In this document: positions 44,297 through 49,309 of the stretch, piece by piece
Position numbering within the stretch: position 1 is the first letter of the stretch
Layout: the number at the start of each line of letters is the position of its first letter
The notes under the pieces: model-generated
Told to the model about the DNA's origin: nothing
Seen by the model: only the letters and a program-made list of their open reading frames with translations
Database searches by the model: none
Program-made: the position numbers and the translations under genes
From: Allopseudospirillum japonicum
GTDB taxonomy: Bacteria; Pseudomonadota; Gammaproteobacteria; Pseudomonadales; Halomonadaceae
Assembly: GCF_900108915.1 (NCBI RefSeq)
Contig: NZ_FNYH01000009.1
Location: 1 to 64,000, forward strand
Direction of reading: 5' to 3'
Length of the DNA stretch: 64,000 bases

Positions 44297-45337
44297 ATGA
44301 CGGATATGCGCCAGCAGCTTGGCTATCAATGGGCTTGTGATTTTCTTAATCAACAAGATCACCAAATATCCTCTTATCAAATCACACCAGTTGCAGGTGA
44401 TGCGAGTTTTCGCCGTTATTTTCGCCTGCATGCCCACTCAAAAACTTGGATTTTAATGGATGCACCTCCAGAACATGAAAGCATCCACACTTTTATCGAA
44501 ATCGCGCAAAGCTGGCGTACAATGGGCTTAGCTGTCCCCGAAATTTACGGTATCAACCAGCAAGCAGGTTATTTATTATTAGAAGATTTTGGTGATCACT
44601 TATTACTAACATGTTTGCAACAAGACCCACAGCAAGCCTCGCAATGGTACCCACAGGCAATTGATCAGCTGATTCTTTTACAAACGGCAGATATTAGTAC
44701 CAAAACCTTACCCAGTTACAACTCGGCACTGATGCTGCGTGAAATGCAGTTATTTAGTGACTGGCTTTGTATTCAAGGTTTACAACTGGATAAAAACGAA
44801 GTAGAGACTCAATGTCGTCCCTTGATGCAGACTTTAGCACACACATTACCTAAACTCCCTTGTGGCCCAGTGCATCGAGATTATCACTCACGTAATCTAT
44901 TAATTAAACCCGATCAAAGTTTAGGGATCATTGATTTTCAGGATGCGGTTCATGGCCCCCTATGTTATGACCTAATGTCGATTCTTCGTGATTGTTATAT
45001 TCATTGGCCGTTTGCACAACAAAAGGCTTGGGCACAACATTATTTTGTCCAAGCACAAAAATCGAATTTACTTCCTGAAGATACAGACTTTAACACCTTC
45101 TGGAAACAGGCTTTACGTATGAGTGTTCAGCGCCACTTAAAAGCAAGCGGTATTTTTGCTCGTCTTTATTTAAGAGATCATAAAACCGGCTATTTAGCGG
45201 ATATTCCGACCACCTTAAACTATATTCAAGAAGCAGCAACTCACCTGCCTGATGCCGAGTTACAACAATTCAGCCTTTGGATGCAAACTCAAGTTTATCC
45301 ACGTCTTGCAGATTTTATTGCCCAAGGACAGAACTAA
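44297..45337 (+). CDS. amgK: AmgK, anomeric MurNAc/GlcNAc kinase
   Basis: Phosphorylates the anomeric carbon of MurNAc in the recycling bypass to UDP-MurNAc. It is an aminoglycoside-phosphotransferase-like kinase with GDASFRRYFRL (N-lobe), the catalytic loop CGPVHRDYHSRNLLI and metal motif GIIDFQDAVHGP. AAAGGA lies six bases before the ATG. It has 346 residues. Its stop is one base from the murU start, so the pair is coupled as in Pseudomonas. Confidence 0.93.
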   Translation: MTDMRQQLGYQWACDFLNQQDHQISSYQITPVAGDASFRRYFRLHAHSKTWILMDAPPEHESIHTFIEIAQSWRTMGLAVPEIYGINQQAGYLLLEDFGDHLLLTCLQQDPQQASQWYPQAIDQLILLQTADISTKTLPSYNSALMLREMQLFSDWLCIQGLQLDKNEVETQCRPLMQTLAHTLPKLPCGPVHRDYHSRNLLIKPDQSLGIIDFQDAVHGPLCYDLMSILRDCYIHWPFAQQKAWAQHYFVQAQKSNLLPEDTDFNTFWKQALRMSVQRHLKASGIFARLYLRDHKTGYLADIPTTLNYIQEAATHLPDAELQQFSLWMQTQVYPRLADFIAQGQN

Positions 45338-45338
45338 G

Positions 45339-46052
45339 ATGCGCGTACTTTTACTTGCCGCTGGCCGAGGGACACGCCTGCACCCTTTGACACAAGATTG
45401 CCCCAAACCCCTAGTTCAAGTAGGTGACAAACCCCTCATTGTTTGGCACTTAGAACAGCTAGCGCAGGCCGGAATTACTGAGATTGTCATTAATACCGCC
45501 TATTTAGGGGAAAAAATTCGTGCTTATTTAGGCTCTGGCACCGCTTGGGGTGTCCATCTAGAATATTCGATTGAAGATCACCTCGGCGGTTTAGAAACAG
45601 GCGGCGGCATTATGCATGCCTTGCCTTTGCTCAGCCCACAAAAAAACACGCCTTTTATCGTGATTAATGCCGATATTTGGACCCAGTTACCTTTAAAACA
45701 CCTCTTAGATATTGGCCAATGTTGGCAGCAAGGTCAGCAGGGGTTTTTATATATGGTCCGCAATCCTGAGCACCATCCGCAAGGAGATTTTTATTTATCG
45801 CAACACAGGCTCTATACTCAAGCGCCACATGCCGACGCACAGACTTTCACTTTTGCTGGGATCAGTGTGTTACATCCAGATTTATTTAATCAAGGCCAAC
45901 AGGGGGCCTTTCCCTTAGCACCTTTACTACGCCAAGCAAGCAGCCAAGGGCATTTATACGGTACACAACACTTGGCCCCTTGGTTTGATGTGGGTACAGT
46001 AGAACGTTTGCAGCAAACACAAACCTATATTGATCATCATATTTTACATTAA
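45339..46052 (+). CDS. murU: MurU, MurNAc-1-phosphate uridylyltransferase
   Basis: Makes UDP-MurNAc from MurNAc-1-P, feeding peptidoglycan synthesis while bypassing MurA (and fosfomycin inhibition). It is a nucleotidyltransferase with LLAAGRGTRLHPLTQDCPKP, ETGGGIMHALPLL, VINADIWT and WFDVGTVERL. At 237 residues it is typical. Only the ATG at 45339 makes sense, since the longer frame runs inside amgK. Confidence 0.94.
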   Translation: MRVLLLAAGRGTRLHPLTQDCPKPLVQVGDKPLIVWHLEQLAQAGITEIVINTAYLGEKIRAYLGSGTAWGVHLEYSIEDHLGGLETGGGIMHALPLLSPQKNTPFIVINADIWTQLPLKHLLDIGQCWQQGQQGFLYMVRNPEHHPQGDFYLSQHRLYTQAPHADAQTFTFAGISVLHPDLFNQGQQGAFPLAPLLRQASSQGHLYGTQHLAPWFDVGTVERLQQTQTYIDHHILH

Positions 46053-46071: not shown

Positions 46072-46995
46072 ATGGATTCTGATGCATCTTTACCTTGGTA
46101 TCTGTGGTTACGTGCTTTTTTAGGCAAGGGGTTAGGCCTTGTACTAGGCGGTTACCTAGGCGGAGAGCTGGGCGCTGTATGCGGTTTTATTTTAGGTCAC
46201 AGCTTAGATGATAAGGCCTTTCGCCAACTCCCTTGGTCTGAGTTGATGCGCTGGCCAAACACAGATAAACAGCACATCTATCATCAAACCTTATTTACTT
46301 TATTGGGTCATTTAGCCAAATGTGATGGACGTGTCTCTCCGCAAGAAATTGAATGTACAGAAGGGATTATTCGTGAGCTTGGTTTGAGCACTGAGCAACG
46401 CCAGCAAGCGATTGCCTATTTTAACCAAGGTAAGCAACAAGATTTAGATCTCACCCCGATATTAAAGCGCTTTACACGGCGTTTTCGTCATGCACAAAGC
46501 CAACGCCTCGGTTTATTAGATCGTGCTTTAACTCTCATTTATGCAGAAGGGCAGGCCCACACACAACAAATTGCACGTCTGCAACAAATATTACCTATTT
46601 TAAAAGTCTCTTATACTGAGTTTGCGCGCTTACATCATCATTTAAGGGTAAGGCGTGGATTTGAAGCCCCTTATCATGATAATCCAAGTCAAAATTATCA
46701 ACGTAAAAAGCGCCAGCAACGTGAAGAGCAAGCGCGTCAATCTCAGCACAACCAATACACTTATACGGCCGATAGTAAAAGTGTCTTGCTTGCAAAAGCC
46801 TATCAAGTTTTAGACTTATCGCAAAATGCCAGTGAAGCACAAATTAAAAAAACGTATCGTCGTTTAATGAGCCGACATCATCCAGATAAGTTAATTGCAC
46901 AAGGAATTGGTGAACCAGCCTTATCCCGTGCCAAAGAAACTGTACAACAGATCCACGAGGCCTATGCCCTTATTCGTAAAGAACGCGATTTTTAA
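46072..46995 (+). CDS. djlA: DjlA, membrane-anchored DnaJ-like co-chaperone
   Basis: DnaK co-chaperone at the inner membrane. A glycine-rich membrane segment (about 18-40, GLGLVLGGYLGGELGAVCGF) precedes a TerB-like domain (LLGHLAKCDGRVSPQEI). A charged linker and a C-terminal J domain with HHPDK (about residue 264) follow. 307 residues. Its last 26 bases overlap the convergent nucleotide-sugar-dehydrogenase-like gene. Confidence 0.92.
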   Translation: MDSDASLPWYLWLRAFLGKGLGLVLGGYLGGELGAVCGFILGHSLDDKAFRQLPWSELMRWPNTDKQHIYHQTLFTLLGHLAKCDGRVSPQEIECTEGIIRELGLSTEQRQQAIAYFNQGKQQDLDLTPILKRFTRRFRHAQSQRLGLLDRALTLIYAEGQAHTQQIARLQQILPILKVSYTEFARLHHHLRVRRGFEAPYHDNPSQNYQRKKRQQREEQARQSQHNQYTYTADSKSVLLAKAYQVLDLSQNASEAQIKKTYRRLMSRHHPDKLIAQGIGEPALSRAKETVQQIHEAYALIRKERDF

Positions 46996-48289
46996 TAGTT
47001 TCACCTCGACCCACACCAAAATAGATAAAACCTAAATGTTTAACATACTCTGGGTCATAAATATTGCGGCCATCGAGAATTAATGGATGACGCATTAATT
47101 CTCGCATCTGTGGAAAATCCGGTGTCCAATAACATTTCCATTCGGTAACGACCAACAAAGCATCCGCTTCTTGTAACGCTTGATAAGGATCTGAATGACA
47201 CTCTAATAAAGGATGATCAGGATAAAGATTTTGCAAAGCGTCCAAAGCTTTGGGATCATGGACTCTCACTTTGACGCCTTGTGCCCACAAAGCCGCTAAT
47301 AAGGCAAGAATCGGCGCCTTGTCTAAACTATCAGTCCCAGGCTTAAATGCCGCACCCCAAATAGCGACCTTGCGGTCTTGTAATTGGGTTTGATAATACT
47401 GCCACAATTTACGAAATAAAATTTCTTTTTGTGATTCATTAATTGACAAGACTTGATGTAGTAAGGTGGTATTTTGCCCATATGTATCTAAAGCTTGCGT
47501 TAATGCATCAAGATCACGTGCAAAATTCAAACCACCAAAACCACAGCCTGGATATAAGTATTCAAAACCAATACGAGAATCCCCTCCCATACCTTGACGT
47601 ACATTTTCAATATCAACTTGCAATTGATCTGCAAGATTGGCCAATTCATTAATATAGCTTAAACGAGTTGCTAACATACCAGTAATGGCTAATTTGGTAA
47701 GTTCTGCATCCCGTGTTGACATGATTTGTAATTGATCTTGACGACGATTAAAAGGATATAAAAGTGCTTGTATTTGTTTTAAAGCCCAAGCCTGTTCACA
47801 ACCTAAAATAATCCGAGCAGGACGCATAAAGCCTGTCAAAGCTGCCCCTTCTTGCAATAAATCCGGCAAGCTCACCACAGCTTTTTGGGATGCTTCTTCC
47901 GTATAAGGTGTTAATATCTGTTGTAAACGGGCGCTAGTCCCAACGGCAAAAGTGCTTTGATTAATCACCAAAAGCTGCTTTTGTGGCAAGCTTGCTAAGA
48001 CCTTAGTCACCGCATTAGCCTGCGCAACCTGATCGGATGCCAGCGCTAAAATAAAGACATCAAATCCAAGCTTTAGCCCTGCCGACAAAGGCATGACTTG
48101 CAAACGTCCACTCGCTTGTTGCTCTTGATACGCCTGCTTTAATGCAAGCTCTTTCGTCTCTGGTCCATGCTTTTGCAATTGAATCCCTAAATTTTCAGGA
48201 ACCAGATGAAGTACTTGATTCCCTGTCGTCGCAAAAGCCGCTGCACTCACTTGAGCGCTAAGGGTATTACCATAAATTGCAATTTGCAT
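46970..48289 (-). CDS. UDP-glucose 6-dehydrogenase-like protein with altered catalytic residues
   Basis: It has the size (439) and three-domain layout of UDP-glucose dehydrogenase, with a well kept C-terminal part (GAAFKPGTDSLDKAPI, ILDGRNIYDPEYV) and FMRPARIILG. However, the Rossmann GxGYVG is replaced by GNTLSA at 7-12. The catalytic Cys of GGSCFPKD is Asn255 (GGLNFARD, 252-259), the conserved Asn after the catalytic Lys199 is Thr203, and the PEFLREG Glu is Asp143. K199 and D259 remain. It lies 12 bases after galU, which makes the normal substrate. Either a changed reaction or a non-catalytic regulatory role is possible. The frame is fully open, so it is not a decayed pseudogene. Confidence 0.8.
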   Translation of the reverse strand: MQIAIYGNTLSAQVSAAAFATTGNQVLHLVPENLGIQLQKHGPETKELALKQAYQEQQASGRLQVMPLSAGLKLGFDVFILALASDQVAQANAVTKVLASLPQKQLLVINQSTFAVGTSARLQQILTPYTEEASQKAVVSLPDLLQEGAALTGFMRPARIILGCEQAWALKQIQALLYPFNRRQDQLQIMSTRDAELTKLAITGMLATRLSYINELANLADQLQVDIENVRQGMGGDSRIGFEYLYPGCGFGGLNFARDLDALTQALDTYGQNTTLLHQVLSINESQKEILFRKLWQYYQTQLQDRKVAIWGAAFKPGTDSLDKAPILALLAALWAQGVKVRVHDPKALDALQNLYPDHPLLECHSDPYQALQEADALLVVTEWKCYWTPDFPQMRELMRHPLILDGRNIYDPEYVKHLGFIYFGVGRGETIKNRVLYE

Positions 48290-48301
48290 ATCAACAACCG
48301 C

Positions 48302-49237
48302 CTACAACAAATGAGTTGATGCAAGATATTGCTGTAAATAGGCACTAAATGCCTTTCCCCATACAGGATGCTGACACCCATAATGGACATTGGCTTGCAA
48401 AAAGCCCATAGGATCACCACAGTCATGCACTTGTCCATGCATGCAATAAGCAGACAGCTTGTGATCTTGCAATAAAGCTGCCAACGCATCTGTCAATTGA
48501 ATTTCATTCCCTGCACCCACGGGTGTTTGAGCCAAATAACTAAAAAGGATTCGTGGCAAAATATAGCGTCCAACAACCGCTAATTGTGACGGTGCTTGTT
48601 CTGGTTGTGGCTTTTCCACTAGTTGGCTTAAAGGTGCATATTCACCTGCTGCTAGCTGCTGTTTGCCTGCAGCCAAAGCCGCAATACCATATTTTTGTAC
48701 CTGATCTTGCGCCACAGGCATTAGCATAATTTGCCCTTGTTGGGTTGCCTGATAGGCTGCCAGCATAGCGGCTAAATCATTTTTATAAGGGGTTAATGCG
48801 TGTTGATAAGCCCGTGAATCAATCAACATATCCGGCAATAACACCGCGAAGGCTTCTTCCTCCTGACCAATAACTTCCTGCGCACATAAGATGGCATGCC
48901 CTAGACCTTGGGCTTGTGGTTGGCGTACGCAAATAATTTGCATATCCGCTGGTTTGACTGCTTGCACCGCCTCTAACAAGGTTTGCTTGTTGCGTGCGGC
49001 GAGTGTGTGCTCAAGCTCGTAATGGGTATCAAAATGATCTGCGATGGCTTCCTTACCTGTGCGTGTCACTAACACTAAGCGTTGCAAACCAGCTTGCGCT
49101 GCTTCCTCAACCACATATTGAATCGCTGGGCGATCCACCAAGGTCACCATTTCTTTAGGAATCGCCTTGGTTGCAGGCAGTAAACGAGTTCCCAATCCAG
49201 CGACGGGAATCACTCCAGTTTTGATATGGGTCGGCAT
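48302..49237 (-). CDS. galU: UTP-glucose-1-phosphate uridylyltransferase
   Basis: Makes UDP-glucose. Motifs are VIPVAGLGTRLLPATKAIPKEM, the Asp/Lys sites in VLLPDMLID and VEKPQPEQAPS, and NEIQLTDALAAL. The ATG at 49237 has AGGA six bases upstream; the frame to 49252 is an extension. 311 residues, slightly longer than average. It leads a two-gene unit with the dehydrogenase-like gene and is divergent from uspA. Confidence 0.95.
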   Translation of the reverse strand: MPTHIKTGVIPVAGLGTRLLPATKAIPKEMVTLVDRPAIQYVVEEAAQAGLQRLVLVTRTGKEAIADHFDTHYELEHTLAARNKQTLLEAVQAVKPADMQIICVRQPQAQGLGHAILCAQEVIGQEEEAFAVLLPDMLIDSRAYQHALTPYKNDLAAMLAAYQATQQGQIMLMPVAQDQVQKYGIAALAAGKQQLAAGEYAPLSQLVEKPQPEQAPSQLAVVGRYILPRILFSYLAQTPVGAGNEIQLTDALAALLQDHKLSAYCMHGQVHDCGDPMGFLQANVHYGCQHPVWGKAFSAYLQQYLASTHLL

Positions 49238-49309
49238 AAAATATCCTGTCAAAGTGCAACTAATGGTAAACTAAAAATCTAAGCCCTCATCTTACAGGGA
49301 GATTTGAAG

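Follow-up and report, generated by a model that had tools for sequence, protein, structure and literature searches.

Eighteen residues are described as invariant in 229 NDP-sugar dehydrogenases in the accessible part of PMC4794789, and in human UDP-glucose dehydrogenase (UGD) Arg260 touches the glucose of the neighbouring subunit (PMC3184952, available excerpts). A gene named ugd is one of eight always present in 237 K loci of Acinetobacter baumannii, with UDP-GlcA as its predicted product (PMC9676051, available excerpts), and the K-locus ugd is listed as the UDP-glucuronic acid maker in the accessible parts of PMC3628348, PMC9676051 and PMC7200062. GalF of E. coli has been proposed to modulate the uridylyltransferase GalU, and stable GalF-GalU hetero-oligomers have been doubted in Klebsiella (PMC11796359, available excerpts). 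Here we describe a UGD-family protein that is encoded beside galU and lacks the catalytic Cys. We think that it is probably a conserved pseudoenzyme derived from UGD, and that it may sense or regulate UDP-glucose supply.

A UGD-family gene beside galU

The gene occupies positions 46970..48289 on the minus strand of the window, by which we mean the whole 64,000-nucleotide stretch of DNA analysed, and forms an open frame of 439 aa with an ATG start. Directly upstream on the same strand, across a gap of 12 nt, is a galU-type uridylyltransferase gene (48302..49252), in agreement with an earlier sequence-only reading that had placed an open 439-codon frame beside galU. This galU was the sole strong galU match in its genome, the one other match (E 6.5e-6) falling in frame 45252-46052, and its product scored under the NCBIfam equivalog cut-off (TIGR01099, 311.4 versus 326.8 bits). 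A promoter scan upstream of galU on the minus strand gave one promoter-like site against a shuffle mean of 4.9 and, since the sites are fewer than in the shuffles, is no evidence on transcription. The 3′ ends of this gene and of a convergent frame (46072-46995) share positions 46970-46995; we take this next frame, on the other strand, to be a djlA-like or DnaJ-domain gene by its appearance.

Pfam recognized the N-terminal, central and C-terminal domains of the family in the window protein (PF03721, 40.4 bits; PF00984, 91.5 bits; PF03720, 90.3 bits; all above the gathering cut-off) and no NTP_transferase domain, the mark of a GalU paralogue. The protein also passed the cut-off of TIGR03026, the NCBIfam nucleotide sugar dehydrogenase model (231.9 versus 189.8 bits), as did four further Cys-less proteins (L085, L106, L227 and L234; 4/4 tested), so that this general family model labels the five Cys-less proteins tested as nucleotide sugar dehydrogenases. 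The closest solved structures by sequence were the BceC UGD chains of B. cepacia (E ~1e-79), and an AF2 model from a 28-row alignment (mean pLDDT 80, pTM 0.63) had the UGD chain 3gg2_B as its best PDB match (Z 34.4, 3.4 Å, 382 residues). Residues 239-254 and 428-439 of the model have a pLDDT <50, and as the first of these stretches is the loop expected to wrap the sugar, this counts against the reading that we favour below. The TIGR03026 score and the three intact domains would suit a working dehydrogenase, for UDP-glucose or a related substrate, whose active site is unusual. We nevertheless hold such an activity to be very improbable, as the clade to which the protein belongs is without the Cys, GxGxxG, Asp30 and Tyr10, and its Thr83 loop is shortened.

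Alignment confirmed the four active-site changes that had been read from the sequence (coordinates on the minus strand, computed from the frame). The NAD-binding GxGxxG is broken to GNTLSA in codons 7-12 (48254..48271), with Leu10 replacing Tyr10, and PEFLxEG, canonically PEFLKEG, is PDLLQEG in codons 142-148 (47846..47866). Codon 203 (47681..47683) is Thr at the position of the active-site Asn, and codon 255 (47525..47527) is Asn at that of the nucleophilic Cys, within GFGGLNFARD (motif scan, motif 47522-47548). The Asp that follows strand β-2 (Asp30) has a role in NAD binding; it was present in 37/37 canonical representatives and is gone from the window protein, in which the Thr83 loop is also shorter. 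Against the 18 invariant dehydrogenase residues, with positions matched through the motif and the distance from the Cys and without alignment to the S. pyogenes enzyme, 12 were kept and Gly9, Gly12, Thr83 (loop shortened), Glu141 (Asp), Asn208 (Thr) and Cys260 (Asn) were lost. Codon 239 (47573..47575) is an Arg that we equate with human Arg260 by its distance from the Cys, and codon 316 (47342..47344) is the Lys that holds the UDP diphosphate (Lys320); both are kept in 125/125 clade proteins. The alignment also showed Lys199 and Asp259 to be retained, so that the earlier claim of a preserved catalytic Lys and Asp holds for the window protein; for the Asp it does not extend to the whole clade, in which 87/125 proteins keep it.

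An old clade without the catalytic Cys

In the window's family (G000-G060) a Cys-less protein of this kind is encoded in 57/61 genomes. We read the residue at the Cys position in 57/57 of these and none had Cys. Homologues that keep it, with a copy here that is simply decaying, would have refuted the sequence-only reading, and this is not what the family shows. A sequencing error was ruled out, as the nearest homologues in 56 further family genomes are also without the Cys. The single matches in G016 and G018 were canonical UGDs and those in G036 and G017 lay outside the residue reading; the family search spanned 97 genomes, the window's own included, and some of its rows had a stop within the matched stretch. 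Distinct proteins numbered 152 at one stage of the tally (26 with Cys and 126 without, the window included) and 178 later (50 with, 128 without). Cys-less loci came from Halomonadaceae, Alcanivoracaceae, Acinetobacter and further families of the order (f26, f36, f37 and f43). Outside the order 5/364 genomes of the class were read as Cys-less (G485, G534, G650, G696 and G727), all with gpi upstream, in a count for which lower-scoring matches were mostly outside the residue reading. DNA pattern scans for the Cys-less GFGG motif (matches in 153/390 and 70/369 genomes) are unusable as family counts because many glycine-rich repeats, and a reversed-pattern control, also match; profile searches took their place, with residues read in the loci that were fetched, but the tallies of these searches (247/390 at 1e-80, 218/369 at 1e-100) mix canonical and Cys-less genes and are likewise not counts.

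In quick trees, with SH-aLRT as their only support, one branch (SH-aLRT 100) split 60 Cys-less representatives from 38 others, no Cys-bearing row fell inside the Cys-less clade, and the stem of that clade measured 0.82 changes per column; a second tree was made minus one divergent short UGD row. Representatives for the trees and for the fixed-position and domain comparisons were chosen at <78% identity and at least 380 aa. The Cys-less proteins thus form one deep, old clade. Branching near its base is a canonical UGD beside gpi (L252:2001-3326, G095), possibly a relic of an ancestral gpi-ugd arrangement. A canonical-lineage UGD in G395 (L244:1998-3335) has independently changed its Cys to Phe (GGSFFPHD) and also carries PQFLKEG; from its sequence it is a candidate for a separate loss of UGD activity.

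Seven Acinetobacter sequences gave pairwise dN/dS values (NG86) of 0.02-0.07, and seven of Salinicola type gave 0.02-0.09; these values are rough where dS exceeds about 1, as many dS values are saturated. The clade is under purifying selection. In the Acinetobacter genus (that of L081), 56/59 genomes gave a match scoring 342 bits or more, with none such in G828, G838 and G839. The many missing catalytic residues could be taken as the mark of a decaying gene copy, which is scarcely credible given a dN/dS of 0.02-0.09 and the presence of the gene in 57/61 family and 56/59 Acinetobacter genomes. A selected, changed function, as first suggested from the open frame coupled to galU, is instead supported by the age of the clade, the low dN/dS in close pairs and the place beside galU or gpi.

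Residues were counted in 26 Cys-bearing and 125 clade proteins (the 126 Cys-less proteins, window included, minus L244); rows <300 aa and exact duplicates were excluded, and each row is a distinct protein, not an independent genome. Because the Cys column itself defined the two sets, the absence of Cys from the clade counts holds by construction. L081 was left out of later alignments because X fills part of its sequence. The Cys column of the clade held N 66, S 25, G 13, A 10, H 7, T 2, Y 1 and Q 1, and the Thr203 column N 77, I 19, S 15, T 12 and M 2. A conserved Asn nucleophile was rejected on this variation (N in only 66/125). Joint conservation of Asn255 and Thr203, raised in the earlier reading, was not found, as both are present in only 2/125 clade proteins, which makes a conserved new active site unlikely.

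Other positions ranged from mostly lost (kept, out of 125: Tyr10 0, Asp30 0, Gly9 2, Gly12 4, Lys263 5, Glu141 6) through partly kept (Asn208 77, Thr118 86, Asp264 87, Ser117 103, and 109 for a Glu that we take to be Glu145) to almost always kept (Pro140 120, Lys204 124). Gly7, Glu201, Asn219, Arg239, Gly257, Gly258, Asn287 and Lys320 were found in 125/125. Overall, losses fall on the NAD motif and the catalytic Tyr and Glu positions, while residues for UDP-sugar contact and for the fold hardly vary. The same tabulated residues, from Tyr10 to Lys320, were all present in 26/26 of the Cys-bearing set. The Thr83-loop segment has 26-27 residues in canonical proteins and 19 in 113/125 clade proteins. 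One subclade (e.g. L106, L108, L109, L114 and L121) has lost the Cys, Asp264 and the Glu pair and has kept the UDP-sugar residues.

When 37 canonical were compared with 60 Cys-less representatives, positions with at least 90% conservation numbered 65 versus 15 in the NAD domain (190 positions), 57 versus 38 in the central domain (110 positions) and 38 versus 29 in the UDP domain (130 positions), and mean identities were 0.60 versus 0.34, 0.72 versus 0.58 and 0.59 versus 0.50, respectively. The Cys-less clade is more divergent than the canonical set in all domains, most of all in the NAD domain, and its residue losses are therefore partly plain divergence. Sixty positions were common to both groups and ten were newly fixed in the clade, including Trp296 (60/60), Arg209 for Lys, and Tyr244 for Phe, which is found in 122/125 clade proteins shortly before the sugar-wrapping loop.

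Since Tyr244 and Arg209 could be functional, the ten new positions, along with strong purifying selection and the retention of Lys204 (124/125), Glu145 (109/125) and Asp264 (87/125), might point to an enzyme of new, probably non-oxidative UDP-sugar chemistry that reuses the old active-site Lys and perhaps the Asp. We regard this as unlikely: no one residue is fixed at the old Cys site, the active-site columns differ among subclades, one subclade is minus the Cys, Asp264 and the Glu pair together, and Lys204 is also merely a sugar contact. As Asn255 and Thr203 are not conserved together and the Cys column is varied, a UDP-sugar sensor would fit these alignments better than an enzyme of different chemistry, the two functions that the sequence-only reading had offered.

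Gene neighbourhood and the Acinetobacter capsule loci

In a set of 125 Cys-less rows that counts L244 but not the window, galU lay directly upstream in 96 (within 600 nt, in most within 10 nt) and gpi in 25 more (within 270 nt), six of the latter with galU 1.6-1.9 kb upstream. One or the other was thus directly upstream in 121/125 rows, and neither in L201, L211, L122 and L244. For canonical rows, galU was directly upstream in 0/26 (within the flanks) and gpi adjacent in 2/50; the synteny count asks only for galU upstream, and the canonical L258 and L259, with galU or galE as neighbours, are outside the set. This neighbourhood suggests a shared process rather than a physical partner.

A canonical ugd elsewhere in the genome, for which the sequence-only reading had advised looking, was found on contig C7 (G000:C7:115631-116977). 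Its product is 36% identical to the window protein and carries GYGGSCFPKD and GTGYVG. At that locus (L002:224-1474, G000) the canonical UGD gene adjoins a hydrophobic 416-aa frame, presumably an O-antigen ligase or polymerase by its appearance. The two kinds of gene can also lie together. In G275 (L258, L194) the canonical ugd comes first, then galU, the Cys-less gene and gpi; L032:1459-7929 has a galE-like gene between the canonical ugd and galU in an otherwise equal order; and in G166 the two are 2.2 kb apart. Since both can share one cluster, neither replaces the other, and their position on either side of one galU in G275 speaks against a working dehydrogenase.

These shared clusters slightly lower our confidence in a pseudoenzyme. 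They also raise the chances that the protein joins canonical UGD in mixed oligomers as a regulatory or structural subunit, a role with which the superior conservation of the central, dimer-forming domain and the presence of a canonical UGD in the window's genome would agree. We give such a subunit only a small chance, as the two genes sit on different contigs in the window's genome and no canonical UGD was found in G041, G307 or A. baumannii DETAB-P16, all of which carry the Cys-less gene; in DETAB-P16 the one other family match has 25% identity.

The Cys-less family includes the K-locus "ugd" of Acinetobacter. The gene order in L085 is galU, Cys-less gene, gpi, galE-like, pgm, with names given by recognition and by the published order. 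We read 50 of the 56 Acinetobacter proteins. None of the 50 has Cys (49 N, 1 S), and 50/50 loci have galU upstream and gpi close by. Weaker matches in the genus numbered 25 (E 4e-19 to 2e-12). All 20 of these that were fetched are accessory short UGDs of 386-390 aa that keep the Cys in GYGGYCLPKD, and their full motif is a further point against dehydrogenase activity in the Cys-less protein. From one named A. baumannii record, close genomes (five at 93-96% identity) and the literature, we extrapolate Cys loss to all A. baumannii K loci.

According to the available excerpts of PMC9676051, CPS type is not influenced by Region 3 differences, and GlcA is assigned to the extra genes ugd2-ugd5, in 24 K loci, despite the constant ugd, which again argues against a working dehydrogenase. 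The accessible part of PMC11619341 gives ugd4 as the UDP-GlcA gene of K71, and that of PMC10904470 describes one A. baumannii mutant that resists phage and has an insertion in the late part of ugd, for which polarity on gpi is possible. The published K-locus data are consistent with a lack of UDP-GlcA synthesis by the Region 3 Ugd. We found no statement of a Cys-less or pseudoenzyme UGD in the accessible portions of the published work, and an earlier notice is possible in Kasimova 2018 (Glycobiology 28:876), which is reportedly on Ugd2.

Proposed role and relation to known systems

We favour a pseudoenzyme with a UGD-like fold that would still bind a UDP-sugar, probably the UDP-glucose made by the adjacent GalU. 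The residues kept make UDP-sugar binding likely. Normal NAD binding has most likely gone, the Cys-dependent two-step oxidation would be impossible, and UGD activity is very probably absent. The Cys-less protein would then serve as a non-catalytic, UDP-glucose-responsive subunit or regulator of a supply module of GalU, Gpi and Pgm, modelled on E. coli GalF as the proposed modulator of GalU. We advance the regulatory role with GalU or Gpi tentatively, and we infer all three properties, namely UDP-glucose binding, lack of UGD activity and regulation of supply. Several observations count against this explanation: the retention of Lys204 (124/125) and Asp264 (87/125) makes residual chemistry possible, some NAD-contact residues persist in many members (Ser117 103/125, Thr118 86/125) and speak against full loss of NAD binding, and Cys-to-Ser and Cys-to-Ala mutants of human UGD retain partial reactions (PMC3184952, available excerpts).

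On an equally provisional footing, the Acinetobacter 'Ugd' and the related proteins of Halomonadaceae, Alcanivoracaceae and further families of the class could form one ancient family of UDP-glucose-sensing pseudoenzymes that steer GalU/Gpi flux into surface polysaccharide. Such a sensing family would explain why no published A. baumannii K locus lacks ugd even though GlcA is assigned to ugd2-ugd5. The K-locus ugd is a fixed landmark in A. baumannii capsule typing; if it encodes a pseudoenzyme, pathway predictions err when they count the Cys-less gene as a UGD, and the supply of UDP-glucose and capsule may have a conserved control point that has gone unnoticed.

Like the UGDs (BceC 2y0c-e, human UGDH and TuaD-type enzymes), the Cys-less protein has a three-domain fold with a conserved central domain and keeps the UDP-sugar contacts (human Arg260, Lys204, Gly257/258 and Lys320). 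Unlike them, it is without the catalytic Cys, GxGxxG, Tyr10 and Asp30, has Asp for Glu141 and has a shorter Thr83 loop. The window protein falls in the same clade as the Acinetobacter K-locus Ugd (galU-ugd-gpi-gne1-pgm), with 45% identity, and shares with it the Asn at the Cys site, the broken NAD motif and the upstream galU; in Acinetobacter, however, ugd is followed by gpi, whereas the next frame in the window (46072-46995) is on the other strand. As with GalF of E. coli and Klebsiella, a catalytically dead paralogue in a polysaccharide locus (PMC11796359, available excerpts), the window protein would act without catalysis, but GalF is a paralogue of GalU, while the window protein is a paralogue of UGD with a putative effect on GalU.
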